DNA from: Thermoanaerobaculales bacterium
Lineage (GTDB): Bacteria; Acidobacteriota; Thermoanaerobaculia; Thermoanaerobaculales; Sulfomarinibacteraceae
Assembly: GCA_021107705.1 (NCBI GenBank)
Contig: JAIOSJ010000332.1
Location: forward strand, 1-33,646
Length of the DNA: 33,646 nucleotides
Reading direction: 5' to 3'
Position 1 is the first letter of the stretch. Each line of letters starts with the position of its first letter. A program made the position numbers and the translations under genes. The notes beneath the pieces were generated by a model, which was not told where the DNA came from, ran no database searches, and saw nothing but the letters and a program-made list of their open reading frames with translations. Positions 1-19,445 of the stretch are shown piece after piece.

Positions 1-1366
1 CGTCGGGAGAATAGACGGGCGCCCCGTCGTATGCCTCACTGTCGGTGAGGTTGCTGATGGATTCGTCACTGAGATCGATCTGGAAGATGTCGTACTGGCC
101 GTTCTTCACGCCTTGAAAAGCGATAAATTGCCCATCAGGCGACCACGCCGGCTGGCCGGCCTGTTCGATGGGCGCCTTGATTTCGATCTCACGCACAAGC
201 TTCTCCCGATACAGATCGAGGATCAAGAGGGTTCGAGTCCGCTCGGTTCGGGCGAACACCCCCAAATGGGTCCCATCCGGTGAAAAAGCTATGTCTCTGC
301 CGACCTTCGGGCCCACGGTAAGGGCCTGGGCAATGAGGTACCTGTATTTCGTTGTGAAGCCCTTGGTAACATTTTTAAAGATTCGTCGATCGGGCACTCC
401 AAAGACTGCAACGTCCACTTCGTCCTTTGCCGTGGTGAAGGCAGCGACAAGATCCCCGTTCGGCGAGGCGACCGGTGACAGCTCGGCAGTCGGACGCTGC
501 ACCCCGGAATAAAAGACCCCACCGAACTCTCGGGGCACCCCTCGGTGATCGTAGCCTTCATATCGGCGCCGCAGCCAGGATCTGAAGGCGGCGTCGAATT
601 CGTCGACCTCCATACGAAAGACTCTCTGCAACGGTCGGGAAATGTTTCCCCCTACGGTGTTGCGAAAAGAAAAGATAAATTCCCGAAGCCCTTCCTCTCC
701 CCACTCGGACTCCACAAATTCAAAAACCATGTGCCCGAGGCGGTAGGCAAAGAACCCGCTGATCGGTTGAGCAAGCGACGGCACTCGATCCGAAAGGGCC
801 GCGTCCCGCATATAGGCTTCATCCAGAGAGTCCTCGTCTTGGGCAAGGTATGAGGCCATTCCCTCCATGAACCATAGGGGTGGTCGCCTGTAAATCGCCC
901 GGCCCATTCGACCCTGGAAGAGGATTTCATACTGAAAAATGTGGGTAAGTTCGTGTTGGATCAGGGTCTGAAGCCCGTATTGGGGAAGATCCACCGGGAG
1001 AACCATCCGATTCCTGGACTGCGTCGCGAAGGCCCCGACTCCCTCCGGAATGAAACTGACGATGACGTTGGTCTGCTCGAATTCGGCATGGGTCGCGTAG
1101 ATGATCATCGGGATGGGCTTGAGGATCTGGAAGTTCAGACGCCGGGCCAACTCGTCGTAGGCACTTTCCGCAAAGGAGGCCACCTCGTCAAGCGAAGGCT
1201 CGGATCTGTCGTAGTAGGAGATCTGGAAATGAGGCGTGTCATACACCTGCCATTCGAAGGTGTCGTAGCGAATCTTGTTCTTGCCCCCCCTGAAATTTGT
1301 TTGAGCCGTAACCGGCGCCACCGCAACCAGAAGGGAAATTAACGCCAACCAAACACGCAACCTCAT
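1..1366 (-). CDS. Secreted peptidase MA-like zinc metalloprotease with C-terminal PD40 propeller (partial, runs off left edge)
   Basis: The frame is open from an ATG at 1366 to the window edge, about 455 codons, so the C-terminus is missing. A signal peptide is clear (MRLRVWLALISLLVAVAP, then VTAQ). The zinc motif HELTH lies at about residues 138-142, and WFMEGMASYL about 26 residues later supplies the third ligand Glu (about 168). This spacing is typical of gluzincins of the peptidase MA family. From about residue 260 there are WD40-like PD40 blades with the signatures FSPDGTHLGVF and AWSPDGQFIAF, as in TolB-type propellers. A GGGAG Shine-Dalgarno sequence precedes the ATG. It is the last visible gene of the minus-strand operon that starts near 5267, 63 nt after the preceding stop. 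Expected location is the periplasm or cell surface. The substrate is unknown, and proteolytic activity is inferred from the motifs only. Confidence 0.85.
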   Translation of the reverse strand, partial: MRLRVWLALISLLVAVAPVTAQTNFRGGKNKIRYDTFEWQVYDTPHFQISYYDRSEPSLDEVASFAESAYDELARRLNFQILKPIPMIIYATHAEFEQTNVIVSFIPEGVGAFATQSRNRMVLPVDLPQYGLQTLIQHELTHIFQYEILFQGRMGRAIYRRPPLWFMEGMASYLAQDEDSLDEAYMRDAALSDRVPSLAQPISGFFAYRLGHMVFEFVESEWGEEGLREFIFSFRNTVGGNISRPLQRVFRMEVDEFDAAFRSWLRRRYEGYDHRGVPREFGGVFYSGVQRPTAELSPVASPNGDLVAAFTTAKDEVDVAVFGVPDRRIFKNVTKGFTTKYRYLIAQALTVGPKVGRDIAFSPDGTHLGVFARTERTRTLLILDLYREKLVREIEIKAPIEQAGQPAWSPDGQFIAFQGVKNGQYDIFQIDLSDESISNLTDSEAYDGAPVYSPD

Positions 1367-1429
1367 GCAACTCTCCCATCCTGCAGTTCAAAACCGACGA
1401 AGGAAGCGGACCAATCAAATTCGCCGATC

Positions 1430-2149
1430 TCATTTGAACAAATACCTCTTGGCACGAATAAACCTGGGCACGAAGATAGCCAACAATCGATTATCCAGAG
1501 TGTAAAGATCGCTGAACATATCTGTGAAGACCTCGAGTTTTCGCTCCGACTTCTCCTGGAAGTCGGTGATCTGCTCACTGAAGACGACCTTTCCGTTCTC
1601 ACCGTCGAGAACGGTCACCAGGATGTCGTAACTGAAGCCCGTCTCTTCAATCAAAACCTGTCGAAAATAGGTCTTCCCATCCTGCGGTGAAACGTATTCC
1701 TCCGTCTGGTAACCCGCCCGGTCGAGGACGGCAACGTCGATGGCAGCGGTGACGATGTATTCAGCGCCGGTCTCCCGCCCGATGTCCATCCAAAAAGACG
1801 TGATCTGGGCCAGCTCCAATGGGTTTTTCGTCGGCAAATCGAGGTCCGCAATTGGATTCAGGACGGTGAGACGAGTCTCACGCCGAAGGAGTCGGCGCAG
1901 GTACCGGTCAAACTCGCGCGCCGCTATGACATCCAGGCCCTCAGCCTCAACTCCCTCGGCGCCGGGCTCCAGGAGAATGGGACCGACGTAGATCCGTTCC
2001 GTGCCTTCGAGCTTCATCTCAGGTTCGACCCTGAGCATAATTCGCAACTCCTTCGCATCGGCAACTCCGCCGAGAAAATGAAGGATGGCCAGGCTGAGGA
2101 AAGCCACTGAACAGAAAACCGCCGACCGTGGCCTACACACCTTCCGCAT
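1430..2149 (-). CDS. Secreted alpha/beta protein, possibly CsgG/LpoB-like
   Basis: This is a 239-residue exported protein. The frame is open further upstream (to 2383), but that stretch is basic, low-complexity and lies inside the TPR gene, so I chose the ATG at 2149. It is followed directly by a signal peptide (MRKVCRPRSAVFCSVAFLSL, cleavage likely after GVADA). The start overlaps the 3' end of the TPR gene by 17 nt, suggesting translational coupling. The mature part alternates strands and helices, with segments such as GAEYIVTAAIDVAVLD and FSYDILVTVLDGENGKVVF. This recalls the alpha/beta fold of CsgG, LpoB and TolB N-terminal domains, where short envelope proteins sense or build outer-membrane assemblies. 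The resemblance is by eye and weak. A lipobox cysteine is absent. It probably works with its operon partners at the envelope; no specific function can be assigned. Confidence 0.7.
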   Translation of the reverse strand: MRKVCRPRSAVFCSVAFLSLAILHFLGGVADAKELRIMLRVEPEMKLEGTERIYVGPILLEPGAEGVEAEGLDVIAAREFDRYLRRLLRRETRLTVLNPIADLDLPTKNPLELAQITSFWMDIGRETGAEYIVTAAIDVAVLDRAGYQTEEYVSPQDGKTYFRQVLIEETGFSYDILVTVLDGENGKVVFSEQITDFQEKSERKLEVFTDMFSDLYTLDNRLLAIFVPRFIRAKRYLFK

Positions 2150-2624
2150 TGCCGCCTCCTTCGCTGCTGGTCTTGTCCTCCACTTTCTGCGCGGCCTCAG
2201 TCGTTTCACCTTCTCCTTGCTTTTCTTCCGGATCGCCGGAAGCCGGTTCCCCCTTGTCCTTCTTGTCGACATAAGTCCGGACAAAATCTTCAAAGAGGTC
2301 GAAATTTCGCTTGATGTTGCGTTGGTTCTGCGCCAAGTCCAATGCCCGTTCATAGGCCGCCCTCGCCTTGTCATAGTCGCCAATCACCTCGAAGGACACT
2401 GCCAGGTTACTGAGGATCTTCGGATCATTCGGTCTGAGCCGATTCGCGCTCTCATAACGAACGTTGGCCTCCTGCCAATAGCCTCGTCGCGCCGCCTCAT
2501 AGCCTCGTTTGGCCTCAGAAGCCGCTGCTTTCTCGGACGACTGCTGTCCCTCAACCATGCCGGGACAGGCAAACAATAAGGCCAGAAGCGCCAGAGCTAC
2601 AGAAACTGATCTTCCTGGTCTCAT
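2133..2624 (-). CDS. Secreted tetratricopeptide-repeat protein with acidic tail
   Basis: This 163-residue protein has a signal peptide (MRPGRSVSVALALLALLFAC...). About two TPR units follow, visible as AKRGYEAARRGYWQEANVRY and NLAVSFEVIGDYDKARAAYE, each ending in the Ala-x-x-x-Tyr-x-x-Ala/Ser-Leu pattern. The last 45 residues are charged and low in complexity (Glu, Lys, Gly, Ser), likely disordered. A GGAGTCTGAAA spacer gives a good ribosome site for the ATG at 2624. It starts 12 nt after the GWxTD-VWFA gene and overlaps the next gene by 17 nt. In context it is probably a periplasmic adaptor of the same envelope system. The Cys in LFACPG could suggest a lipoprotein, but the surrounding residues do not make a convincing lipobox. 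Confidence 0.85.
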   Translation of the reverse strand: MRPGRSVSVALALLALLFACPGMVEGQQSSEKAAASEAKRGYEAARRGYWQEANVRYESANRLRPNDPKILSNLAVSFEVIGDYDKARAAYERALDLAQNQRNIKRNFDLFEDFVRTYVDKKDKGEPASGDPEEKQGEGETTEAAQKVEDKTSSEGGGNAEGV

Positions 2625-2636
2625 TTTCAGACTCCT

Positions 2637-5267
2637 TCAAAAACCGCCGGGAAAGTACCCGGAAATCGTCCTGACATCCATTCCTCTTCGATCGACTTTG
2701 ACCTTGATCTCCCGCATCTCCTCCGGCGGCCGGTTCGAGGTCGAGGTGTAGGCCAACAGGTACTGGGTTCGGAGTTCCTCGTCGATCTCTTCGTAGATTC
2801 TGTCCAACTCGTCCTTTCCGGAAATGAAAAAGGACCGGCCTCCAGTGATCTCGGCCAACCGCCTGAGCTGAAAGCGCGCCATGACCTTGGTTTTGGCAAG
2901 ATCGACTGCGATCGTATAGATCGTAACGCCGGATCGAAGGGCGAAGTCTTTCACGGCTTCGGAAGTGTATTTCGAAGAAGTATCTTCACCGTCAGTCACG
3001 ATCACCATCGCCTTGCGACCACGAACGCCGGAAAACTGGAAGAGCCCCATGATCGTTGCGTCATAGAAGGCCGTTGTTCGATCAGCATAAAGGGCAAGAA
3101 GGGCATTCTCCAGCGTGTCAAAATCAGCCGTGAAACTCGCGAGAATGTCCGGCTTATCGGAGAAAGCCTCGATGAATGCGCGATCCTTCGGTCGCAGTAA
3201 CTGCCGCAGAAACCCCATGACGACGCGCTGCACGGCCGGCAGCGTGTCCTGCATCGACCCCGATGAGTCAATAACGATCCCGAGTCGGATCGGGAGGTCC
3301 TGCTGCAAGGAAAAGTGAACGATCTCTTGCTCGACGCCGTCCTCCTCGACCCGGAAATTCTCCTTCTGAAGGTCCTTCACCGGCTTACCGGAACGACCCA
3401 GAACAGTGACGGGAAGCTCAACCGAAGTCACGTCGACCACGGTTCCGAATTCCGGTGCATTGACGAACTGCAGGTCCTCGGCCTGCGAACCATCATCGAG
3501 AACGGCGAGTGCCCTGAGATAGCCCATCTGTCCGGCAGCCCCAACCTGTACCCAAGCTTCAAAGGGCATCTGAAAGAGAGTCGTCAAGAGTCGATCATTC
3601 CAGTAGATCTCCAGCTTCTCGAGCGCGGCGTCCGTGGGAGTGTTCATCGCCACCCTGACCCTGAGCCGATCCCCGTTCACATCTCCAGGTGAGATCGGTT
3701 GGATACGAAGAAAGAAGCGCTCTCGGCCCACATTCAGCGCGATCTCTGCCCGGCCCAACTCCAATCCGTCGGCGCCATAACCTGTCGCCCTTACCGTCAT
3801 CAGTCTCGGCAGAACTCCAAGGTTCAGGTCAACCTCGAAGGGGGGCCGGTTCTTGGTGAGAATCTTTCGTTCATCCACAAAGAAACTCACACTCTGAACG
3901 TCCCTGCATGTCACAGCCTCGAACCTTTTTATGCCGCTCACAGCCTCACCGCCGGGCCCAACCAATCGGACAACCGGTTCCTCGTCATCCTCGGGGGTTG
4001 GGACTTCAATCGTCTCCAAAGCCGGCCTAATCACTCGTTCACTTTCCCTGGCCTTCAGAGCGTCCTGTAGGTCGGCTGTGAACTGTCGTTCGACCACCCC
4101 GGCGTGGGAGGAATGCACGTCCTCGATCTTGAGACGGACCGTGTAGTCACCGGGACGAACATACCGGTCAAGCAGGAGAACAAGTCGGTCGCCGGCCGTC
4201 GGTACGGAAAAGAGGTAGCGAAAGCGGTCGACCATGCGTTTGTCTTGAGAAATCTCACCGATGACATCCACCTGCACGACCTCGACCTCTCCGACCTGTG
4301 TCGTTCCCAGATCACCGGCCGAAAGTCCGAGGTCGAATGCCATACGTATCTTTCCCCCTCGGAGGCCGCGTTCCCTACTCTCCACGGTGAAGTCCAGAGC
4401 TTCGGCATCACCGTCCAGCAGTGCCGAAAACTCCATGAAACGATGGGCCGCCCCTTCCGCCCCGGTAGACTCCACCGAGGGCAGGTGGTACATGAGCCTC
4501 ATGAATTTCGGATCCCTCGCCCAGCGATCTGCACTGTTGATCATTCGCAGAATCTGCTCGCCATTGCTGCACCGGCTTTCAGGCCGGTCGAAAAAAGACC
4601 TGGCGCCACCGCTGGTGAGATTATCCCAGGCCATGAAAACGTAGAGTGCTTCTCTGCCGTCGAAACTGGACCAGAAGCGATAATTCCCGAGACCGCTCGG
4701 TTTGTAGAAAAGGGCAACTACCCCCTCGCCAAGACCCTCGATATAGCTCCAACCCCAGATCGTCAGAGGATGGAAGACCTGGTCGCATCGGACCACCAGT
4801 TCAAAATCCGGCGGTCCGTGGATCAGGAGAACCCGCGCCCTGTCATCGATCATGTGCCGGAACGACTCCCGGCACAGAAGAATCCTCTCTTCATAAATAC
4901 CGCGAAATTTCGAACCGTACCCCGTCTGGTGACCCCACAAGATCCATAGACGGTCGATGTAGGCTCTGCGTTGGGCTTCGGTCTCGAGCTTCAGGAAGGC
5001 CCTCTGCTGCTCCTTGGAAATGAGTGGATAAACTTCTTCGGTCAGCCACACTCTCCATCGTTCAGGCAGGTCCTTGACCTTCTTGGCCTGGCCGGCGTCC
5101 GCAACCGGGGCCATGACCGCCGCAATCAAAACTGCGACCGTGAACAGGGCAACAAACCGGTCACAGAGAATATCCCGGAAGCAAAGGATCGCGGATCGAT
5201 CAATCCGTCCGCCGCCCCCACGCCGGAATTGTCTTGCAATTCGTCGCTCTCTTGGCCTCAACGTCAA
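2637..5267 (-). CDS. GWxTD domain - VWFA fusion protein, exported
   Basis: This is an 876-residue exported protein. After a basic N-terminus and one hydrophobic segment (ALFTVAVLIAAVMAPVADA) comes a GWxTD-type domain of the kind common in Acidobacteriota (WRVWLTEEVYPLISKEQQ; RARVLLIHGPPDF). A beta-rich middle follows. From about residue 658 there is a VWFA domain with an intact metal-ion adhesion site: DSSGS at about 667-671, Thr near 731, and TDGED with Asp near 759. VWFA-MIDAS domains bind protein ligands through a divalent metal. The longest frame starts with TTG at 5267. A second TTG at 5261 sits about 6 nt after the AGAGGGG ribosome site and is at least as likely, so the exact start is open. 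It heads the four-gene minus operon. The partner is unknown; a surface-adhesion or envelope-assembly role is inference. Confidence 0.87.
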   Translation of the reverse strand: MTLRPRERRIARQFRRGGGGRIDRSAILCFRDILCDRFVALFTVAVLIAAVMAPVADAGQAKKVKDLPERWRVWLTEEVYPLISKEQQRAFLKLETEAQRRAYIDRLWILWGHQTGYGSKFRGIYEERILLCRESFRHMIDDRARVLLIHGPPDFELVVRCDQVFHPLTIWGWSYIEGLGEGVVALFYKPSGLGNYRFWSSFDGREALYVFMAWDNLTSGGARSFFDRPESRCSNGEQILRMINSADRWARDPKFMRLMYHLPSVESTGAEGAAHRFMEFSALLDGDAEALDFTVESRERGLRGGKIRMAFDLGLSAGDLGTTQVGEVEVVQVDVIGEISQDKRMVDRFRYLFSVPTAGDRLVLLLDRYVRPGDYTVRLKIEDVHSSHAGVVERQFTADLQDALKARESERVIRPALETIEVPTPEDDEEPVVRLVGPGGEAVSGIKRFEAVTCRDVQSVSFFVDERKILTKNRPPFEVDLNLGVLPRLMTVRATGYGADGLELGRAEIALNVGRERFFLRIQPISPGDVNGDRLRVRVAMNTPTDAALEKLEIYWNDRLLTTLFQMPFEAWVQVGAAGQMGYLRALAVLDDGSQAEDLQFVNAPEFGTVVDVTSVELPVTVLGRSGKPVKDLQKENFRVEEDGVEQEIVHFSLQQDLPIRLGIVIDSSGSMQDTLPAVQRVVMGFLRQLLRPKDRAFIEAFSDKPDILASFTADFDTLENALLALYADRTTAFYDATIMGLFQFSGVRGRKAMVIVTDGEDTSSKYTSEAVKDFALRSGVTIYTIAVDLAKTKVMARFQLRRLAEITGGRSFFISGKDELDRIYEEIDEELRTQYLLAYTSTSNRPPEEMREIKVKVDRRGMDVRTISGYFPGGF

Positions 5268-7711: not shown

Positions 7712-7819
7712 CAAAACCCCCTCAAACCGAACGACAGTTCCTGACGCCCTGCGCTATAGTACGCGAGTTCATCCGCTCCCGAAAGCGATGACAAATAACT
7801 GGAATAACGGATTTTGCTC

Positions 7820-10588
7820 ATGAAGATCAAAGGTTGGCGTCGGTTTGCGGGTTTCTCTCTCGTGTTTGTGGCCCTGATTGTCGCCTGGATGGCCCTGCGA
7901 CCCTTCTTCCGGGAATCGGCTCCTGTTCCGAAACAGGAGATTCCACGAAAGGCTCAGAGTTTTGTGCTTATTACCCTCGATACCACGAGGGCCGACCGCC
8001 TCAGTTCTTACGGTGCAGAGGATGTCGAGACTCCCGCGATGGAGAGTCTGGCCAAGCGAGGTGTGCTTTTCGAGAATGCCTATGCGGTAGCCCCGATTAC
8101 GCTGGTCTCTCACACCAGCATGTTGACCGGGCTCAACCCACCAAGGCACGGTATTCGAAACAACGGTATTCACCATGTCGCCGACGAGATCACCACCATC
8201 TCGGAGATCTTACGTGACGAGGGTTTTCGAACCGCGGCATTCGTCTCGGCCGCCGTTCTCGACCATCGATACGGGTTGGACCAGGGTTTCGAGGTCTTTG
8301 ACGATGACCTCTCTCAGGGTGGGAACCGCAGAGCCAGAATGGTTCCGGACCGGCCGGCCGGATCGACAGTGGATGCCGCCCAGCTGTGGCTCGATGAAAT
8401 TGAGCCTGATGAGAGATTTTTCCTGTGGGTTCATTTCTACGATCCACACGCAGTCTATTCGCCCCCCCCACCCTTCCGAGACACCTATCGAGAACGCCCT
8501 TACGACGGCGAGATCGCCTATATGGATTCCCAAATCGGCCGGTTCCTCCAACACCCTCGTTTGGCGGATGAACACGATGTCGGCGTCATCGTGGTGGGTG
8601 ATCACGGTGAGAGCCTCGGTGAGCACGGCGAGGAGACCCATGCCCTCCTGGCGTACGACTCCACATTGCACGTTCCTCTCATCCTACGCACACCTGGTGG
8701 GCCGGAGGGCTGTCGAAGTCCGCTACCAACTGGAGGGGCAGACATCGCACCAACCATTCTCGACCTTCTCAACCAGCCGATCCCGACCGATCTGGACGGC
8801 ATGAGTATTGCCACTCTTCTGGCTGAACCGAAGAATGACCGCGCCCTCTACGCCGAAACCTATTTGCCGTATTACACCTATGGCTGGGCAAAACTCAAGG
8901 TCTTCCGCCGGGGAGGTTTCAAATTGATCCTCGGCCCGGGAAACGAGCTGTACGACACCAATCGAGACCCGCTGGAACTCACGAACCTGATCGACCGATA
9001 CCCGAACGAGGCCCACGACCTCATCCAACTCCTCCAAGAGTACGAGGCCCAGTGGGGTGATGCTGAGCACGAGGCGTCAATGACCCTTGACCAGGAGTCG
9101 ATGGACCAGCTCCGCAGCCTGGGATATCTGGCCATTGGCTCGGGACCCGAGAAAATCGAAGGAGAGCGGCCAAACCCGCGGGACATGGTGGATCTGCACG
9201 TCGGACTCGAACGAGCCCGACGCTTCGCCTCGAGCGAACTCTATAGCCAGGCCATCGCCCAACTCCGATTGGTTCTGGAACGTGATCCAGGCAATCTCGC
9301 CGCCCTCATCGATCTTGCAACCAACCTCCTGGAGATCGACGAGTTGGACGAGGCCGCCGAAATCGCTCAAGAAGCAATTTCCCGTGATCCAAATTACAGT
9401 CGTTCCTATATCCTGATGGCAGCAATTGAAATTGAGCGCCGGCACCCGGAAAAGGCATTGGTTCTCTTGAACAGCGCCCTGGAAATCGATCCGCGCCACG
9501 TCGAGGCCCTCTTGCGTAAGGCCCATCTCCTCAAGAGAATCGGACGCCTGTCAGAGATGAGGGGGCTCCTGGAGGCGGCGCTGGTCGAACAGCCGGATCA
9601 ACCTAATCTGGAGATCACCTACGCCAAACTGATCGAGATCCCGAGCGGGAAGGATTCGGCCGCTGAAGAGCGAATTCGCAAGGCCCTGGCCCGCGATCCC
9701 TATATCGCAACCGGTTGGAAGATCCTCGGTGAGATCCTCTTGAAACAGGGCCGCGAAACTGAGGCCCTGGACCTCTACCGGGAAGGTTTGAGTCGCAAAC
9801 CCGACTCCCACGAAATCCACGCCGATCTCGGGCTTCTCTTGGCCAAACTCGGACAAGGAGGCAAGGCCGTGCCGCACCTTCGAGAAGCCATCCGTCTCGG
9901 TCCGGTCTTTCGTTCGGACCTTCACGTAGCTCTCGGCGCCATAGCCTCCCAAGGTGGGGGCTTCGAAGAGGCCCAACGCCACTACGACCTCATTCTCGAA
10001 AAGGAACCCAACCACCCAGCCACCCGCAATAATCGCGCCATCGCTCTCTACAGGCTCGGGCGTTTCCGGGAAGCGAAAGAGGAGCTCGAAAGCGTTCTCA
10101 AGGAAAACCCAAACTATGCCGATGCCGCAAACAACATGGCCGCTATCGCAGTCGACCTGGGTGACTGGACGGCGGCCGAGAGATGGGCGTTGCGCACCCT
10201 CGAGCTCGAACCGAGGGCCTATGAAGCCTGGAACAACCTCGGAGTTGCCCACGATGAGTCGGGGAACCATCAACAGGCCCGCAAAGACTTCGAAAAGGCC
10301 CTGGACATTCAACCGGACTATCAGCCCGCAAAGATCAATCTCGGCATCACCCTGGCTCGAATGGGCCTCAGCCGAGAGGCGGCCGCTGTATTCGAGCAGG
10401 CGCTGGCCGCCGGCCCGGCCGACCCGACAATCAACCTCGAACTCGGGGATCTCTATGCCGGACCACTGGCAAATATGAAACGGGCAAGGGCCCACTACAA
10501 CGCATTCATTGCGGTGGCGCCCAATCATCCACGAGCCACAGAGATCCGACGGACACTGTCCACCCTGAGTGCCCCGGACGGTCAGTAA
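7820..10588 (+). CDS. Membrane-anchored alkaline-phosphatase-superfamily (sulfatase-like) hydrolase with TPR repeats
   Basis: The protein has 922 residues from the ATG at 7820; a TTG two codons upstream has no better ribosome site. A single N-terminal membrane segment (about residues 11-27) anchors it. The sulfatase-like domain begins LITLDTTRADRLSSYG, with Asp54 a likely metal ligand. The nucleophile motif reads TLVSHTSMLTG, which places Thr at the position where true sulfatases carry the Cys or Ser converted to formylglycine. Further metal ligands appear in FYDPH and VGDHGESLGEHGE. From about residue 450 to the end there are roughly ten TPR units. The Thr nucleophile points to a phosphodiesterase or phosphotransferase rather than a sulfatase. 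TPRs suggest protein partners. The gene stands alone between divergent and convergent neighbours. Similar fusions are frequent in Thermoanaerobaculia (family knowledge, not checked here). Confidence 0.9.
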   Translation: MKIKGWRRFAGFSLVFVALIVAWMALRPFFRESAPVPKQEIPRKAQSFVLITLDTTRADRLSSYGAEDVETPAMESLAKRGVLFENAYAVAPITLVSHTSMLTGLNPPRHGIRNNGIHHVADEITTISEILRDEGFRTAAFVSAAVLDHRYGLDQGFEVFDDDLSQGGNRRARMVPDRPAGSTVDAAQLWLDEIEPDERFFLWVHFYDPHAVYSPPPPFRDTYRERPYDGEIAYMDSQIGRFLQHPRLADEHDVGVIVVGDHGESLGEHGEETHALLAYDSTLHVPLILRTPGGPEGCRSPLPTGGADIAPTILDLLNQPIPTDLDGMSIATLLAEPKNDRALYAETYLPYYTYGWAKLKVFRRGGFKLILGPGNELYDTNRDPLELTNLIDRYPNEAHDLIQLLQEYEAQWGDAEHEASMTLDQESMDQLRSLGYLAIGSGPEKIEGERPNPRDMVDLHVGLERARRFASSELYSQAIAQLRLVLERDPGNLAALIDLATNLLEIDELDEAAEIAQEAISRDPNYSRSYILMAAIEIERRHPEKALVLLNSALEIDPRHVEALLRKAHLLKRIGRLSEMRGLLEAALVEQPDQPNLEITYAKLIEIPSGKDSAAEERIRKALARDPYIATGWKILGEILLKQGRETEALDLYREGLSRKPDSHEIHADLGLLLAKLGQGGKAVPHLREAIRLGPVFRSDLHVALGAIASQGGGFEEAQRHYDLILEKEPNHPATRNNRAIALYRLGRFREAKEELESVLKENPNYADAANNMAAIAVDLGDWTAAERWALRTLELEPRAYEAWNNLGVAHDESGNHQQARKDFEKALDIQPDYQPAKINLGITLARMGLSREAAAVFEQALAAGPADPTINLELGDLYAGPLANMKRARAHYNAFIAVAPNHPRATEIRRTLSTLSAPDGQ

Positions 10589-10601
10589 GCTCGAACCGGC
10601 C

Positions 10602-10631
10602 AAAGAAAAAACCGGGCCCGAAGGCCCGGTT
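10602..10631 (-). terminator. Rho-independent terminator for the IPTL-CTERM-like gene
   Basis: Bases 10610-10618 (AACCGGGCC) pair perfectly with 10623-10631 across a CGAA loop. On the minus strand the 9-bp GC-rich stem is followed by a T-rich run (TTTTTTCTTT, 10611-10602). It starts 25 nt after the minus-strand stop at 10656. On the plus strand no T-run follows, so it should act mainly on the minus-strand transcript, although the hairpin also lies just past the convergent plus-strand stop at 10588. Confidence 0.9.
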
Positions 10632-10655
10632 GAGAAATTCGTTGGCCGGTCGAAA

Positions 10656-11450
10656 TCAGGCGGAACGCCTGAGAACGAAGACACCACCCAATCCGAGAAG
10701 GACAGCGAGAATCAACAGCCCGATCGTTGTAACTGTCGGAATGGCGCTCTGCAGCACGACCGTCGTACTGTTGACCAATCCGATTGCGTAGGAATCTGTC
10801 ACTGGTGAACCGTAATAGGTCTGCGTTGGGGCGGTCCAGATGTAGGAGGCGGCCCAAAAAGTACCGTAAGTCTGAAAGGTCGCCCCTGGCGGAATCAGGT
10901 ACGGCACGCCCGACGTCACCTGGGTCAGGTATGAATTTGAAGGTGTGTCGGTAAACAGCCAGAAGCTGACCGTAGCCGCTTGAACCTCGTAGGTTCCAAC
11001 GTCAGGGAAGGTGTGGGTGAAACTCCCGCGGAAGGAACCGGGATTGCCGGCAATCAGAGGCACGGTCGTGCCATCGACGGTTCCCGAACCGACACCCCAC
11101 TCAAGAGCATTAATATCCGGGTTCAACAGAGTTGCATAACCCCAACCGGACCAAGACCGGGCTTGATCACCCAACATGCCGAAGGGAAATTGGTGAGAGT
11201 TATAGTTGTATACGTAAGTAGGAGAGGTCCCGGTGGTAGTTACCGTCGTAAAGGTCCCGGTGGCGGTATTGACGGTTACATCGACATCTGCGGTCAATGC
11301 CTGTGGGTTGACACTGGTGGTCGCCACTCGGATCCCGGTAGGTCTGCGAGCATACTGGTACCCAATCGCATCCTGCGCCATCGCCAGGCTCTGCCCAACG
11401 GCCAGAAGTACGATGAGGACTATCGCGGTCTTAATAATCAAGCGCTGCAT
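10656..11450 (-). CDS. Exported protein with C-terminal IPTL-CTERM/PEP-CTERM-like sorting signal
   Basis: The frame is open to 11525, but the ATG at 11450 has a GGAGGAGAACGCCG ribosome site and starts a signal peptide (MQRLIIKTAIVLIVLLAVGQ, then SLAMA), giving 264 residues. The mature protein is Ser/Thr/Tyr/Gly-rich and beta-rich, with few charges. The C-terminus reads SAIPTVTTIGLLILAVLLG followed by LGGVFVLRRSA. It thus has an IPT-type motif, a transmembrane helix and a final Arg-Arg cluster, the tripartite layout of IPTL-CTERM/PEP-CTERM proteins sorted by exosortase-type enzymes in diderms. No such sorting enzyme is present here. Upstream is the small secreted gene at 11482, with a 31-nt gap, so the pair is likely co-transcribed. 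Function of the mature region is unknown. Confidence 0.8.
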   Translation of the reverse strand: MQRLIIKTAIVLIVLLAVGQSLAMAQDAIGYQYARRPTGIRVATTSVNPQALTADVDVTVNTATGTFTTVTTTGTSPTYVYNYNSHQFPFGMLGDQARSWSGWGYATLLNPDINALEWGVGSGTVDGTTVPLIAGNPGSFRGSFTHTFPDVGTYEVQAATVSFWLFTDTPSNSYLTQVTSGVPYLIPPGATFQTYGTFWAASYIWTAPTQTYYGSPVTDSYAIGLVNSTTVVLQSAIPTVTTIGLLILAVLLGLGGVFVLRRSA

Positions 11451-11481
11451 CGGCGTTCTCCTCCCAATCAATCCGGCCGCG

Positions 11482-11925
11482 TTACCGGCGTTCCAGAACG
11501 AGGTTCCGCGTTTGTCGGTCGGCACCGGACCCGCGCGTCACAACGAGATTCAAAATATCGGCCCCGGAAGGAGTCACTCGTATTTCGGCCTTCCGACGAA
11601 CCTTGGAATTCAAAACAGTGCGGGTGGAGATCACCAATTCGGATCCCTCCCAGACTGCCGTCATCAACCGAGCGGCTCCGCCCGGACCCTGAAGCTGCTG
11701 TTCGCTCCCGTCCGCGACGAATTTCATGGGACGGCCTCTTGCGTCCGAGTTGTCGATGTTCACTCGGAATTGGTCCCCGTGCTGCACGATGATGATCGAA
11801 GCTCCGCTTTCGCTTCCCTGGAAGGACCAGGTACCCGATAGATCGGCGGTAGCCGCACCTGCGCCCGCACAAAGGCCCAGGGCTGCGACCCCGATCAGGG
11901 CGCTCAGCCAAATCTTTCTCCTCAT
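11482..11925 (-). CDS. Small secreted lipocalin-like protein
   Basis: This 147-residue protein has a clean signal peptide (MRRKIWLSALIGVAALGLCA, cleavage after AGAGA). The mature part begins DLSGTWSFQGSESG and continues with short strands (ASIIIVQHGDQFRVNI, LMTAVWEGSELVIST, RKAEIRVTPSGADILNLVVT). This is the antiparallel meander seen in small lipocalin-like or calycin-type proteins annotated as extracellular binding domains. The AGGAGGTGAAAAT leader gives a near-perfect ribosome site. It is the first gene of a two-gene minus-strand unit with the IPTL-CTERM-like protein. A frame open upstream on another register has no signal peptide and was not chosen. No ligand can be deduced. Confidence 0.82.
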   Translation of the reverse strand: MRRKIWLSALIGVAALGLCAGAGAATADLSGTWSFQGSESGASIIIVQHGDQFRVNIDNSDARGRPMKFVADGSEQQLQGPGGAARLMTAVWEGSELVISTRTVLNSKVRRKAEIRVTPSGADILNLVVTRGSGADRQTRNLVLERR

Positions 11926-12076
11926 ATTTTCACCTCCTCATTCCCAATAAAACACTCAAAACGAATTGGACCGCAATTGAAATATTTCACACAACATTGC
12001 TGAGGCAATATTATCCCATCCACGATATTTCCGCCATAGTAAGATTCTATGGCTTTTGGTGAGGTGAGGAGCCGAG
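11926..12076. promoter_or_regulatory. Divergent intergenic region with AT-rich palindrome and two dyads
   Basis: This 151-nt region separates the minus-strand secreted gene (start 11925) from the plus-strand membrane gene (start 12077). It holds a perfect 12-bp palindrome TGAAATATTTCA at 11978-11989, a 5-bp dyad with TGAG loop at 11996-12009, and a 6-bp dyad (CCATAG/CTATGG) at 12034-12052. The palindrome has the size and AT content of an operator. No convincing -35/-10 pair could be assigned for either direction, so the regulator and promoters remain unknown. Confidence 0.4.
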
Positions 12077-13144
12077 ATGACATCCCTGGCAGTAAAGTTT
12101 CAAGAGCTTTTGAAGGACCGCGCCTTTCGGCTTTGGTTGATGATCCTCGCGCCGCCCTTTTTCCTGGCCGTTGTGTGGCTTCGGAGCTACCTCGAGATGA
12201 CTGTGTTCTCGGCGACGGACCGATTTTCCTATTACACCGGACTGCACCACATCTGTTGGTACTCAAGCACGATGCTGGCCATCGTGCTGGTGGTGCACCT
12301 TGTTTTGAGGCGCCCTGTTGAGCGGGCCATACTCTTCTTGTACGGCGTCGTAATTGTTGTCATTCCGCTTGGTTGGTCACTCGTTTCCGGTATTCCACTC
12401 GACCTTCAATACCTCAACGGGACGCCTCGGGAGATCCTGATTCAGATCGGCACACTCTCGATATCGGAGCCGAGGAATTGGCCCCTGGTTCCGGAACTGA
12501 TCCTCATCATCTTCGGCATGGGAGTTGTCGGGAGGATCCTTTCGGGCAGTTGGGTACGCGGCGCCCTTCTCAGCTCGGCTACAACAATCAGTCTCGCGGT
12601 GTTCGGTCTGACATGGTTCGGTCTGGCGGGAGGGAAGATTGCGGTTCTCACCTTCGCATCACGATTAATCAGGGGCCAGGCGCTTCAGGCCACGGCTTGG
12701 TTGGTCGTCGCGACATCCTTGGTTGGAGTGCTGCTCTGGCGCCACGGACTTTTCTCTCACGGACGGCGATCCTGGACCATCGCCGCCGTCATTGCAACTG
12801 AGGTGTGGCTGCTCTGGGTCATCGTTGTTTTGGGGACCGGTTGGTTCCCCTCAAGTTTCGACGCCGTGAGTACCGGACTCTTCCCCGCATCGACGACTCT
12901 GGTCGTCGTACGGTTTGTTCGTTCGGATCGTTCCCTCGTCACACCCGCAATCTGGGGCCTTCTTGCGCTGGTGCTGACACTCCAAGCGGCGACGCTGATG
13001 CCCATCATTCTCCATCGAGAGAGTGAACTCTACCGACCGAAATCATTCAATATCCGAAATCCCAACCGACGAGGCCACGATCTTCGGTCGATGGTTCCCG
13101 GCATTCTGCAGTCCACCCCCACCCCGCAAAAGGTCGAGGCGTGA
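12077..13144 (+). CDS. Polytopic membrane protein of unknown function
   Basis: This 355-residue protein has about nine hydrophobic segments, among them LWLMILAPPFFLAVVW, MLAIVLVVHLVL, LYGVVIVVIPLGWSLV, LVPELILIIFGMGVVG, LLSSATTISLAVFGLTWF, TAWLVVATSLVGVLLW and IWGLLALVLTLQAATLM. The C-terminus is basic and likely cytoplasmic. A GAGG/GAGGAG ribosome site precedes the ATG. Its stop overlaps the GTG of the UbiA-family gene by 4 nt (GTGA), which strongly suggests joint translation. I recognise no family motif. Because of the coupling, a partner role in prenyl or polyprenyl lipid handling is a reasonable inference, but nothing in the sequence shows an active site. Confidence 0.85.
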   Translation: MTSLAVKFQELLKDRAFRLWLMILAPPFFLAVVWLRSYLEMTVFSATDRFSYYTGLHHICWYSSTMLAIVLVVHLVLRRPVERAILFLYGVVIVVIPLGWSLVSGIPLDLQYLNGTPREILIQIGTLSISEPRNWPLVPELILIIFGMGVVGRILSGSWVRGALLSSATTISLAVFGLTWFGLAGGKIAVLTFASRLIRGQALQATAWLVVATSLVGVLLWRHGLFSHGRRSWTIAAVIATEVWLLWVIVVLGTGWFPSSFDAVSTGLFPASTTLVVVRFVRSDRSLVTPAIWGLLALVLTLQAATLMPIILHRESELYRPKSFNIRNPNRRGHDLRSMVPGILQSTPTPQKVEA

Positions 13145-15605: not shown

Positions 15606-18600
15606 TCAACCTATTCCCAGATGCCTCAGGTGATAGAGGAGAGTCTGGCGCGATATGCCGAGGTCTCGTGCTGCAGCGGTACGATTCCCGTCGAATCTCT
15701 CCAAAGCGCCTTGAATCAGTTCGGTCCGAAGCTTCTGGTGGGCATCTTCCCATCTTTGGGGAGATGCCTTTCGATCACCCGTCAAGGCGACCTTCGAGAA
15801 AAATGGCAGGTGCTGCGGAAGAACAACTCCTCCATCAGCCGCGAGAAGGACCGCCTCGACGACTCTCCGCAATTCCCGAACATTTCCCGGCCACTGATGG
15901 CGCCGCAACAGCTCCTCGGCCTCAGGGCTCCAACGGGCCCAGGAAAGACCCTTGTCTCGAACCGCCAGGTCAGCGAACAAATCGCGCAACAAAAATACGT
16001 CGTCCCCGCGTTCTCTGAGCGGTGGTATTAAAATTTCGACCGACACGATTCGGTAGTAGAGATCTTCACGAAAGACGCCGTCGGCAACCATCTGTTCCAG
16101 GTTTCGATGGCTCGCGGCGATGACCCTGACATCGACCTTTCGGGAACGACCGGACCCAACTCGGCGCACCTCGCCGGAATCCAAAAAACGCAACAATTTG
16201 ACCTGAAGAGGCAGAGCCAGATCGCCGATTTCATCAAGAAACAACGTGCCTCCGTCGGCTTCCTCGACCAGACCGGACCGATCGCGATCCGCACCGGTGT
16301 ACGCGCCCCGCACCGCCCCAAACAACTCCGCCTCGAAGAGTGTCTCTGCCACCGACGCAACGTTGACCGTGACATAGGCCCCTTTACGTTTCGACAGAGA
16401 GTGAATCGCCTGAGCCGCCAGATCCTTGCCGACGCCGGTCTCACCGGCGAGTAACACGGCCAGTCCTGAGGGAGCGACTTTCCGGAGATCTTTGACGGTT
16501 CTTCGTATGGATTGGCTGGTCCCAATGATGCTGAGATCTCCCCCGTTCTGTCCTGGTCCGCCCGAAGTCTTCATCGGTGTCATACCTACGACTGCGGAGA
16601 ACAGTCGCCATCCCCCGCTGGAGGAAGCCTTCGACCCGAGCGGTACCACCTCCAACGAGCCTCGCCGAACGGGGATACCCTCGTCGCCTTCACCCATATT
16701 CCAGATCTCTTCACCATCCAGCAGGTTTCTGACCTTGACACCTTGAACGCCAAGACCGTCCAAAATTGCTTGAAACTCCTTCGTCGCCAAGCTCTCAGGC
16801 GAACCGGTCTCGGCAAGACGCGCAACAGCCACGAAAAAATCTTCCCAATTCCCGCTTCCCTTGTCACGCAGCCCCTCTGCCCAGCCGTCCAGACCCTTTT
16901 CCTGCAGTAACGATGAACACCGTTGACAGATCTGAGGAGAGGGCCACTCCGGATCTCGGAGCAAGCTGTCGGCGAGAGCAATACTGAGGGCTTCGTAAAG
17001 ATCGACAGGAGAATCATTTTCGATCTCAGCAGGGCGTCCCCTATGGCGCGCCTCATCCACGAAGGCGGTGACCCGGGAAAGCTGCCACGGATCCCAGTTC
17101 ACCGGCACTCCGCCCTTCCCACCTTCAAACGCATCCAGGATCTGCAGCCACGCCTCTCCGTCCTCACCACCGCGGAGAAGGTGTTTCCGAGCTTGGACTC
17201 GACGACCCTCAATCAGTGCGAGGGCGCCTCGTAAAGACTCAACCCCTGCCTCTACCCTGGAGTCCCCGAGAGAATCCAAGTCTTCAGGGAAGGTCCCCAG
17301 CAGGTCTCTCAAACATTTCAATCGTCCCCGGCCCAAAGCAATCTGGCCTTCTGCAGTCATTCGGAGAGGGTGGTCCTGAGCCGCACCAGCCCGCACTCTC
17401 TCTTCGGCCCGATCAAGTTGCAGGCGTTCCACGTCAACCACGCCCAGGTTGAAGAGCGGCTTCTTAACCGTATGTAGAAAACCGGCAGCCTCCAAGAATC
17501 GCAGCGCCCTCAGCAGGTGGGTCGTCTCTGCCCGAGGATCTTCGGCAACAATCCCCAAATCCAAGTGGATCTGTCCCAGCCGCCCAGGTGATCGCTCGGT
17601 CTGGGCCAAGGCCGTGAGAATCTCTCTCGCTGCCTCTATCTGCTGCCCTTCCGTAAACTGAAGGGCGAGCTTGTGTTCGACAAGTCCTCGCAATTTGCTG
17701 TTGGCACCGACCATCTTGATCCGCCACTGCTCGTCTCTCAACTTCGCCGGTTCCAGGGCCGCCACACGGAGAATCTCATACCAACGCTTCAGTTCACCTC
17801 CAAGCCTTTCGATCGCACGATCCAGGAGATCTTCAGGCATCATTTCCAGTTCCAGGGATCGACGACCACGAATTCTGATGGCATGGATCGCCACTTCGGC
17901 GGCCACCCGCGGCGCCCGCTCAATAAGAGATTCGACCTCGCGAGATTCCGGCCTCCAGCCATCCTCCAAATCTTCGAGGTCAATCCACAAACGCCACGGC
18001 CGACCATCGACATCATTCAGCGCTGAACAGCCTTCCCGTGCTCCGGACAGATCGAGTTCGCCGAGCCCGGCCTCGACTCGGAGGGCGGCTACAGCCGGTC
18101 CAAGCTGTCCCGTTTCGACCTCGCCGAGCAATGTCCCTACCTCGAGATTCTCCAGGCAATCCAACTTGTTGCGCGCCCACGTTTCGAGTTCCCCGACTGA
18201 TTCACCGGCAAGTGCCAGGTGGAGAAGGCGGCGCGGGTCGCCGTCTGGAAAAAGATGGGCGACCTCTTCATGGAGCGGGTCTTTCCGGAGTTTTGGGGGA
18301 TCGGAGAGCCGCCAGAGATCTCCGTCAAAAACGACCTCCCCTTCAGAGGCGCGACGCGTGAGATCTTGGATTCCTCTGCCGCCGAGTCGGCCGAGGACGG
18401 GCTCCGGCAGTCCCTCCCGGCAGAGGCTCAAAAGCCGATAAACGGGATCCGCGGTAGCCTCCGACGACCCGGGAACCACCACGCTCTGTTGTTCAAACAG
18501 ACGACAGGCAGCGGTGGTGAGCGCCTCCCGATCCGCCAAGGCCCACGGATCGAAATACCCCTCATGAGCCTCCACCTCGCGACGTGCACGATCGAGTGAA

Positions 18601-19445
18601 ACCCCAGTCACGGCCAACTGCCGGCTCAGCGAGCCCGAACACCCTTCCGGAACCGGAGGATCCCACCCGGGCGGGAAAAGTCCGACGACAACGGCCGACC
18701 GCCCCTCCTCACGGGCCCAAATCTCCAGGGAGGCAAGACCCTCATGAGACAGCTTCCCCATGAGGACGGCAACCGCTCTCGGCCCCGCGTTCTTAGGTGG
18801 TTCATTGTCAGTTATCAGGTGGACCTCTCGCCCGCCCTCGCGAAGATCGGCCCACGCCGCCCCCGCGAGTCGCCCAGCGAGATCATCGCGCGAGACCTTG
18901 TAAAAGAGGATCTCACCTTCATCAGGAAGGATCAATTGCGGCCAGCGAAATGCCCAGAGATTTCGTCCAGTCACGGGATCGAGCGGCCGCTTCAGACCAC
19001 TCAGGCTTCTGCGAAGCGAACCTTCAAGAAAGAACCCCGCTCCCTCCACCGGCATGAGATCATGGATCGGCACCCCGGTTACCCGGCCGACAGCTTCAAT
19101 CACCGCCGCTCGCGTGGTTTCCAGCGCTCTGTCGCCGCCACCCAAACGCCGATGAACGGGCGTCAGGGGAACCGGAAACCCACCAAGGACCGCCTGGACT
19201 CCCCCAACTTTCCGATGAGCCCTTGCTCCCACAAGAGCAGCCCGACCCGGCCAAAGGTCAAATTCCGCGCCCAGGGCAGCGGCAGCCAACAACTGGACGG
19301 CGAGTCGCCGCCTTTCGGCCCTGGCCAAGGTCCGGATCGAAACAGATCCCTCGAGATCGGGTACGGCCTCGTCTTCGGCCGGTTTTGGGTTCGGGAACGC
19401 GGGATGATCCAGGAGCAGGGCGGCGGACAGCGGGCGACGACTCAT
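15606..19445 (-). CDS. Large sigma-54-dependent transcriptional activator with long helical-repeat N-terminal region
   Basis: The C-terminal 310 residues form a complete sigma-54 activator: Walker A GETGVGK at about 1001-1007, a GAYTGA loop at about 1047-1052 (the GAFTGA sigma-54 contact loop with Tyr for Phe), Walker B LFLDEI at about 1068-1073, arginine finger region FREDLYYR near 1125, and a Fis-type helix-turn-helix (NRTAAARDLGISRQTLLYHL) at about 1254-1277. There is no response-regulator domain. The first 960 residues are mostly alpha-helical with TPR-like repeats. A winged-helix-like stretch lies around residues 330-400, and no nucleotide-binding P-loop is seen in this half. The layout suggests a STAND-like or protein-sensing input. 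The ATG overlaps the aroA stop by 4 nt (ATGA). Which promoters it drives is unknown; no -24/-12 element was found with confidence. Confidence 0.88.
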   Translation of the reverse strand: MSRRPLSAALLLDHPAFPNPKPAEDEAVPDLEGSVSIRTLARAERRRLAVQLLAAAALGAEFDLWPGRAALVGARAHRKVGGVQAVLGGFPVPLTPVHRRLGGGDRALETTRAAVIEAVGRVTGVPIHDLMPVEGAGFFLEGSLRRSLSGLKRPLDPVTGRNLWAFRWPQLILPDEGEILFYKVSRDDLAGRLAGAAWADLREGGREVHLITDNEPPKNAGPRAVAVLMGKLSHEGLASLEIWAREEGRSAVVVGLFPPGWDPPVPEGCSGSLSRQLAVTGVSLDRARREVEAHEGYFDPWALADREALTTAACRLFEQQSVVVPGSSEATADPVYRLLSLCREGLPEPVLGRLGGRGIQDLTRRASEGEVVFDGDLWRLSDPPKLRKDPLHEEVAHLFPDGDPRRLLHLALAGESVGELETWARNKLDCLENLEVGTLLGEVETGQLGPAVAALRVEAGLGELDLSGAREGCSALNDVDGRPWRLWIDLEDLEDGWRPESREVESLIERAPRVAAEVAIHAIRIRGRRSLELEMMPEDLLDRAIERLGGELKRWYEILRVAALEPAKLRDEQWRIKMVGANSKLRGLVEHKLALQFTEGQQIEAAREILTALAQTERSPGRLGQIHLDLGIVAEDPRAETTHLLRALRFLEAAGFLHTVKKPLFNLGVVDVERLQLDRAEERVRAGAAQDHPLRMTAEGQIALGRGRLKCLRDLLGTFPEDLDSLGDSRVEAGVESLRGALALIEGRRVQARKHLLRGGEDGEAWLQILDAFEGGKGGVPVNWDPWQLSRVTAFVDEARHRGRPAEIENDSPVDLYEALSIALADSLLRDPEWPSPQICQRCSSLLQEKGLDGWAEGLRDKGSGNWEDFFVAVARLAETGSPESLATKEFQAILDGLGVQGVKVRNLLDGEEIWNMGEGDEGIPVRRGSLEVVPLGSKASSSGGWRLFSAVVGMTPMKTSGGPGQNGGDLSIIGTSQSIRRTVKDLRKVAPSGLAVLLAGETGVGKDLAAQAIHSLSKRKGAYVTVNVASVAETLFEAELFGAVRGAYTGADRDRSGLVEEADGGTLFLDEIGDLALPLQVKLLRFLDSGEVRRVGSGRSRKVDVRVIAASHRNLEQMVADGVFREDLYYRIVSVEILIPPLRERGDDVFLLRDLFADLAVRDKGLSWARWSPEAEELLRRHQWPGNVRELRRVVEAVLLAADGGVVLPQHLPFFSKVALTGDRKASPQRWEDAHQKLRTELIQGALERFDGNRTAAARDLGISRQTLLYHLRHLGIG

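Follow-up and report, generated by a model that had tools for sequence, protein, structure and literature searches.

The window, a stretch of 33,646 nucleotides (nt) from a Thermoanaerobaculales bacterium of the family Sulfomarinibacteraceae (contig JAIOSJ010000332.1 of assembly GCA_021107705.1), is the entire contig C249 of a 444-contig genome. The minus strand of positions 1-5267 carries four tightly packed open reading frames (ORFs), here called G1 to G4 in reading order, as seen from the ORF listing and the translations (Table 1). A first-pass annotation, made from the letters alone, had described them as four packed genes on one strand whose products all carry export signals. This layout was confirmed by the ORFs, by a gene-like codon-position GC content in each of the four genes and by the spacers, which are 12 nt between G1 and G2, -17 nt (an overlap) between G2 and G3, and 63 nt between G3 and G4. 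Purine-rich ribosome-binding sites precede G2, G3 and G4. Hydrophobic signal-like N-termini were recognized by eye in all four products, as had been claimed, with the start of G1 uncertain. G3 was started at the ATG at 2149, 17 nt inside G2; a longer ORF (317 residues, TTG at 2383) was rejected as too long. Promoter and terminator scans gave signals no better than chance. Window base 1 is also base 1 of the contig, so that G4 is incomplete; its missing C-terminus was not found elsewhere in the window's assembly.

Table 1. Genes and protein features encoded at positions 1-5267 of the window.
Feature	Positions	Strand	Remark
G1, exported GWxTD-like/VWFA protein, 876 residues from TTG 5267	2637..5267	-	true start uncertain, may be further in
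G1, divergent GWxTD-like domain, residues 74-171	4755..5048	-	TIGR04514, 17.0 bits, below cut-off of 28
G1, VWFA domain, residues 611-872, MIDAS-type DxSGS and TDGxD	2652..3437	-	TIGR03436, 181.4 bits; motifs seen in relatives
G2, exported TPR protein, 163 residues	2133..2624	-	profile match; next to G3 in relatives
G3, exported alpha/beta protein, FlgT/PelC/CsgG/TolB-N fold, 239 residues, no named sequence family	1430..2149	-	
G3, conserved hairpin DRxGYxTEEYxSPxDGxTYxRQVxxExTGF, residues 143-172	1634..1723	-	invariant or near-invariant columns of two G3 alignments
G4, first 455 residues, cut by contig end: peptidase MA-like domain and start of TolB-like propeller	2..1366	-	
G4, gluzincin-type peptidase domain, residues about 30-286	509..1279	-	alignment, and model of orthologue
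G4, HELTH (HExxH) zinc motif, residues 138-142	941..955	-	third ligand E168 at 863-865
G4, propeller part (PD40, truncated)	2..508	-	PF07676, 40.7 bits

The conservation of the genes was followed in named genomes scanned with the G3 alignment. A total of 102 loci was confirmed, of which the best 80 were kept and taken as in-class; their titles are mostly Thermoanaerobaculia, Thermoanaerobaculales, Holophagae, Holophagales or Acidobacteria(-ota), and include some labelled 'uncultured bacterium' and one each labelled Terriglobia, Vicinamibacteraceae and Deltaproteobacteria. The order TPR-G3-G4 on one strand was found in 79/80 loci, with G4 downstream of G3 in all 80 and the TPR gene (G2) upstream in 79; the exception, L167, has G3 at a contig edge. 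Only these three genes are near-universal. The next neighbour family, antisense shadow ORFs apart, is a divergent gene counted in 67/80 loci and identified as dprA, which profile matches place in 68/80. dprA, topA and purQ belong to the syntenic background and seldom accompany the trio out of class; they were rejected as members of the module, dprA also being divergent. Among 59 close relatives, G3 is single-copy in 43/43 genomes having it and is adjoined by G4 in 42; in the 43rd (genome G019) a contig end truncates G3.

The survey was extended to 199 sampled genomes of the phylum, with a G3 threshold of E 1e-5 or better and G3-G4 pairs assigned by eye. G3 was present in 68 of them, every one of which (68/68) also has G4; in 52 of these G4 immediately follows G3, with no more than about 320 bp between the two. 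Forty regions were fetched from 39 out-of-class genomes, the first 20 for diversity and the second 20 for an adjacency of G3 and G4 known beforehand. The trio was found in order in 33/40 regions (14 of the first 20 by profile matches), some of the regions being short, while the control neighbour dprA dropped from 68/80 in class to 7/40. Seven regions lack the full trio: L209 and L211 have G4 and no G3, L210 (same genome as L209) has TPR-G3 and no G4, L234 is cut at the contig start, and L207, L208 and L215 have a TPR gene, an unrecognized G3-sized ORF and G4. The ORFs in the G3 slot of the latter three (L207 7739-8488, minus strand; L208 7185-7799, minus; L215 3863-4675, plus) display lipobox-like signals and score below the threshold of the G3 profile; they are probably very divergent G3 proteins. 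Conservation across Acidobacteriota, which had been proposed as a check on the whole gene set, was observed beyond the class for TPR-G3-G4 and not for G1.

Complete G4 proteins of relatives are about 970 residues long, the open frames of uncut relatives being mostly 945-1213 residues. According to profiles and a predicted structure, they start with a gluzincin-type peptidase domain, continue with a TolB-like propeller and end in an Omp85 barrel of 16 strands, with no POTRA domains. The orthologue at locus L118, 74% identical to the window's G4 over the shared part and the same protein as that of L101, was used as reference for the model and for residue numbers. Its model (mean predicted local distance difference test score, pLDDT, 85.6; predicted template modelling score 0.82) places the peptidase domain at about 34-290, the propeller at about 291-600 and 16 long barrel strands, by our own count, at 612-965. 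In structure comparison the propeller matched TolB (Z 26.9) and the barrel matched TamA (Z 26.0) and BamA (Z 25.5); FhaC/TpsB barrels were not among the 50 matches listed, which excludes nothing. The full-length G4 of L101 matched PD40, the TolB propeller, Omp85 (PF01103, 26.9 bits over a cut-off of 24) and, below cut-off, Peptidase_MA_2 (20.1 bits), and that of L112 matched PD40, the TolB propeller and, sub-threshold, an NCBIfam Omp85 profile. No POTRA domain was detected in these two proteins at E 0.01, and the model runs from the propeller straight to the barrel. With its N-terminal propeller and POTRA-less barrel the orthologue has the make-up of the WD40-Omp85 subfamily. The zinc protease with a propeller named in the first-pass annotation is present as far as these two domains go; rather than a soluble enzyme, the complete protein of relatives is a barrel protein of the outer membrane.

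The putative zinc ligands and catalytic residue (H142, E143, H146 and E172) are invariant in 45/45 aligned G4 sequences. The HExxH motif was found in 75/75 G4 proteins extracted from the 80 named-genome loci and, together with a downstream Glu-Gly, in 19/19 and 20/20 out-of-class G4 proteins of the first and second set. HExxH with a downstream glutamate is the gluzincin-type signature of clan MA, and catalysis by G4 is predicted from it. The peptidase domain is also the length-constant part of the protein in 43 further full-length relatives (257-259 residues, compared to 304-346 for the propeller and 343-386 for the barrel). An RG motif in the barrel, which we take to lie in loop 6, is conserved as R837 and G838 in 43/44 sequences reaching that point. 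No M48 match was reported for the window's fragment in Pfam and NCBIfam scans. A sequence search of solved structures with the G4 profile returned TolB and weakly BamA, and no row for the peptidase domain. One plasmid record outside the phylum covers most of the G4 query, no wider search of other phyla having been made with the three-domain profile: a 633-residue Salinibacter ruber protein on pSR116 (L217 5902-7803), called 'basic secretory protein-like', is 27% identical over peptidase and propeller and too short for a barrel. Some genomes encode, apart from G3-G4, an additional G4-like protein that is more divergent, with 29-34% identity to the window part (G043:C56:17671, G046:C5:15748, G040:C82:9517 and others).

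The TPR repeats announced for G2 gave a firm Pfam match. G3 belongs to no Pfam or NCBIfam family; its best Pfam hits, LptE and FlgT_M, were below cut-off (E 0.03), NCBIfam gave no match, and the G3 profile found no significant sequence match among solved structures. An alignment of 17 sequences nevertheless contains 23 invariant columns. The AlphaFold model of G3 (pLDDT 86.9) matched FlgT (Z 13.1, 152 residues aligned, 2.8 Å), PelC (Z 11.4), LpoB (9.7), CsgG (8.9) and the N-terminal domain of TolB (TolB-N, 8.9), and structure comparison of the model assigns it the fold common to these proteins and LptE. The earlier 'CsgG/LpoB-like' label therefore holds at the level of the modelled fold and not at that of the sequence family. 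PelC, LptE, CsgG, FlgT and TolB-N act at outer-membrane complexes. A 'split TolB', with G3 as its N-terminal domain and the G4 propeller as its C-terminal domain, is permitted by the fold; as FlgT and PelC fit G3 better, it was left as a lead. The TPR gene and G3 are present in the same 13/20 relatives, and they are fused in one stop-free ORF in 8/40 out-of-class regions from several lineages.

In G1, the VWFA domain, announced as a metal-dependent adhesion domain, is firm, its TIGR03436 score standing far above the cut-off of 81.25 bits; its motifs are presumably those of a metal-ion-dependent adhesion site (MIDAS). The GWxTD domain is less straightforward, as its score is under the cut-off and the literal GWxTD letters are replaced. 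A relative 36% identical to G1 passes TIGR04514 at 70.5 bits, which suggests that G1 carries a divergent homologue of this domain. The domain make-up would then be that of acidobacterial TIGR03436 VWFA proteins combined with TIGR04514, although G1, unlike that family, has no literal GWxTD. We know of no function for TIGR03436 or TIGR04514, and no paper on any function of GWxTD was found in the open-licence literature. Shorter proteins matching only the GWxTD-like first half of G1 at 49-53% identity, the match not extending to the VWFA part, occur at G012:C319:17126-18211 and G015:C89:19622-20530. The window's genome also contains a G1-like VWFA paralogue in pieces and in two frames (contig C76, 922-2475; L002/L005/L006), either frameshifted or an assembly error.

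G1 was found upstream of the trio in 6/80 named-genome loci, four loci having less than 1 kb upstream in which it could not show. In the sister family, G1 lies on a different contig from G3-G4 in 12/12 genomes holding both (contigs being fragments), and G1 is absent from the trio flanks in the named loci of that family too. In the window's family, the 9/20 genomes with G1 (full-length or contig-cut, at E 1e-140 or better) are also those with G3, the other 11, several of them incomplete, having neither G3 nor full-length G1. The scattering in relatives that had been named in advance as refuting the four-gene set is seen for G1, which was rejected on synteny as an obligate subunit.

VWFA genes of another make-up do recur near the trio. 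Profile matches to the VWFA part of G1 were obtained in 16/40 out-of-class regions, one per genome (16/39 genomes versus 1.2 expected, and 7/27 families versus 1.1 expected). The expectation takes in the 1-27 TIGR03436 copies per genome; the families are related, and fewer independent events than 7 may be involved. All 16 neighbours lack the GWxTD part and match TIGR03436 (nine among the matches listed, seven scanned singly), with those of L213 and L225 below cut-off. Eight stand on the strand of the trio, either directly upstream of the TPR gene (L201, L221, L223, L227) or about 0.8 kb upstream (L213, L222, L224, L225). The other eight are on the opposite strand, next to the TPR gene in L231 and L237, 1.7 kb away in L229 and 2.5-5 kb away in L197, L198, L228, L230 and L235. 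The VWFA neighbour is recurrent, though not obligatory. At one locus of the window's family (L120), a second VWFA gene (10511-13111, minus strand) faces the trio from the downstream side.

A separate BamA was identified by TIGR03303 in 59/59 genomes (55 over cut-off) and a separate TolB by TIGR02800 at E 1e-40 or better in 56/59 (16 over cut-off), both also in genomes without the module. G4 as a replacement of BamA or TolB was rejected on this ground, and the trio is considered accessory because the canonical proteins exist besides it. The surface or periplasmic machine suggested earlier is supported for three genes, since the trio stays together out of class and TPR and G3 can be fused; for G1 it is not.

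Several known systems combine similar parts. The β-barrel assembly machinery (BAM) of E. coli with BepA likewise brings together an Omp85 barrel, a propeller (BamB), a TPR protein (BamD) and a zinc peptidase. It differs from the acidobacterial trio in that G4 has no POTRA domain and carries peptidase and propeller within the barrel polypeptide, canonical BamA being separate. The Tol-Pal system shares with it the propeller of TolB and, as separate protein G3, the fold of the TolB N-domain, whereas TolB itself has its own gene elsewhere and has neither the peptidase domain nor the barrel of G4. PelB-PelC and FlgT share the G3 fold and, in the former, the association of TPR repeats, barrel and PelC-type protein, PelB being made of TPR repeats plus a barrel; they differ in barrel type and peptidase, and the three near-universal genes include none for a polymer or a flagellum.

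The closest described proteins are those of the WD40-Omp85 subfamily, which have a TolB-like N-terminal propeller and a POTRA-less barrel, are of unknown function and have been likened to BamA fused with BamB (Heinz and Lithgow, 2014; PMC4104836; this and the other papers cited by PMC number are represented here by excerpts of their text). The subfamily was still called not well characterised in 2024 (PMC11116518). G4 has the same propeller and barrel, to which it adds the N-terminal gluzincin-type peptidase domain and two constant partner genes, neither of which is mentioned in the excerpts of PMC4104836. The 'Metallo' Omp85 subfamily of the same paper is defined by PF00149, the Pfam calcineurin-like phosphoesterase, and not by the peptidase of G4. 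In PlpD, a patatin-Omp85 protein, an enzyme domain likewise stands ahead of the barrel and stays in the periplasm; it is, however, patatin-like and accompanied by a POTRA domain, while the domains ahead of the barrel of G4 are a metallopeptidase and a propeller, POTRA being absent (PMC11116518). No mention of a peptidase domain or partner genes of such a barrel was found in the open-licence literature searched. Going by that literature, WD40-Omp85 proteins were known already, and the peptidase domain and the two partner genes appear to be new.

Taken together, these data tentatively suggest, with somewhat less than even confidence, that TPR-G3-G4 is an accessory outer-membrane protein-handling machine of Acidobacteriota, i.e. 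an assembly or maturation gate with built-in proteolysis. G4 would be seated in the outer membrane via its barrel, with propeller and zinc peptidase domain on the periplasmic side in place of POTRA domains. This placement is proposed because the enzyme domain of PlpD stays periplasmic and because BepA, a zinc peptidase, acts on a client of BAM, promoting or degrading LptD (PMC8423444; a promote-or-degrade action on a client at BAM is also described in PMC13067283). The TPR protein would dock beneath the barrel together with G3, to which it is fused in some lineages, and the two would present exported clients, the three proteins forming a physical complex. Clients would be inserted into or passed through the barrel, the direction of transport being part of the proposal, and the peptidase may trim them or destroy failed ones, in a quality control at the outer membrane resembling that of BepA on BAM. 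Candidate clients, in some lineages, are the exported products of the VWFA genes neighbouring the trio. The wider claim appears rather doubtful: the trio would represent, at least in Acidobacteriota, a separate class of Omp85 machine, in which zinc peptidase and propeller replace POTRA, the TPR protein and a protein of PelC/TolB-N fold form a ring or adaptor, and a barrel gate cuts the proteins it handles, maturing or secreting VWFA-type surface proteins.

A number of observations weigh against the proposed protein-handling machine. Its function is argued by analogy, and the barrel of the window's own G4 is unseen there, being deduced from relatives. Profile support for G4 is weak in places: the window's G4 scores 26.8 bits against the Pfam cut-off of 32.4 for Peptidase_MA_2, and the full-length G4 of L112 matches neither Pfam Peptidase_MA_2 nor PF01103 Omp85 at E 0.01. 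The gene association has gaps as well. In 16/68 genomes G4 lies away from the best G3 match, which there is no stronger than E 1.4e-11, one single-contig genome has TPR-G3 about 930 kb from G4, and 43 further genomes have a G4-profile match without a recognized G3, several near full length and others propeller only. The module is dispensable in the window's family, as seen from the 11/20 genomes without G3. As for the candidate clients, the VWFA neighbours located one gene away (L213, L222, L224, L225) score weakly (72-88 bits, two below cut-off), and among the 80 named-genome loci, which cover differing lengths of sequence, only the 6 of the window's kind have a VWFA gene close to the trio.

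The main rival to the protein-handling machine is a secretion system, in which the Omp85 barrel acts as a two-partner-type translocon for surface proteins, VWFA proteins or others; these would be brought to it by TPR-G3 and be released or matured by the peptidase at the membrane. It draws on the recurrence of exported VWFA genes in 16/39 genomes, immediately upstream on the same strand in L201, L221, L223, L227 and the window's family, and on the fact that the Omp85/TpsB superfamily includes translocases (excerpts of PMC4104836). We regard it as unlikely, as 74/80 named-genome loci are without G1, none of these 74 showing another VWFA gene in stretches of unequal length, and as the barrel of G4 resembles TamA and BamA. 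The VWFA gene enters yet another reading, that of the four genes as one functional unit with the GWxTD-VWFA protein as essential subunit. The co-occurrence of G1 and G3 in 9/20 genomes of the window's family and their neighbourhood in 6 named loci speak for it; the 12/12 sister-family genomes with separate contigs and the 74/80 loci without G1 largely refute it, leaving it very improbable.

If G3 is instead compared with its best fold matches, FlgT and PelC, the trio could serve polymer export or envelope tethering, with G3 as a PelC- or FlgT-like ring under the barrel, the TPR protein as scaffold in the manner of PelB-PelC, and the propeller binding a Pal-like partner. In PelBC, a complex of the outer membrane, twelve PelC form a ring in the periplasm (excerpts of PMC12141448). 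An Omp85 barrel and an invariant zinc peptidase site, however, do not fit a polysaccharide pore, and the near-universal neighbours are only TPR, G3 and G4 (not all other neighbour families were annotated), which makes this reading improbable. That the synteny is conserved without any joint function could be argued from the high background in the class, where dprA alone reaches 68/80 loci. Out of class, dprA is kept in 7/40 regions against 33/40 for the trio, 8 of the regions having TPR and G3 fused, and mere synteny is hardly credible.

These findings link a branch of the WD40-Omp85 subfamily to two constant partners, show its peptidase site to be invariant and point to recurring neighbours as possible clients, and its function is therefore directly testable. 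One of the partners, G3, represents an unnamed protein family that is single-copy in all 43 relatives having it. To our knowledge, the outer membrane of Acidobacteriota has been little studied.

Two other genes of the window were recorded. On the minus strand, 15606-19445 encodes a 1279-residue sigma-54 activator whose AAA+ domain is preceded by about 970 residues without a Pfam match at E 1e-5. On the plus strand, 7814-10588 encodes a 924-residue protein with a hydrophobic N-terminus, in which a sulfatase/phosphodiesterase-type domain is fused to a long run of TPR repeats.

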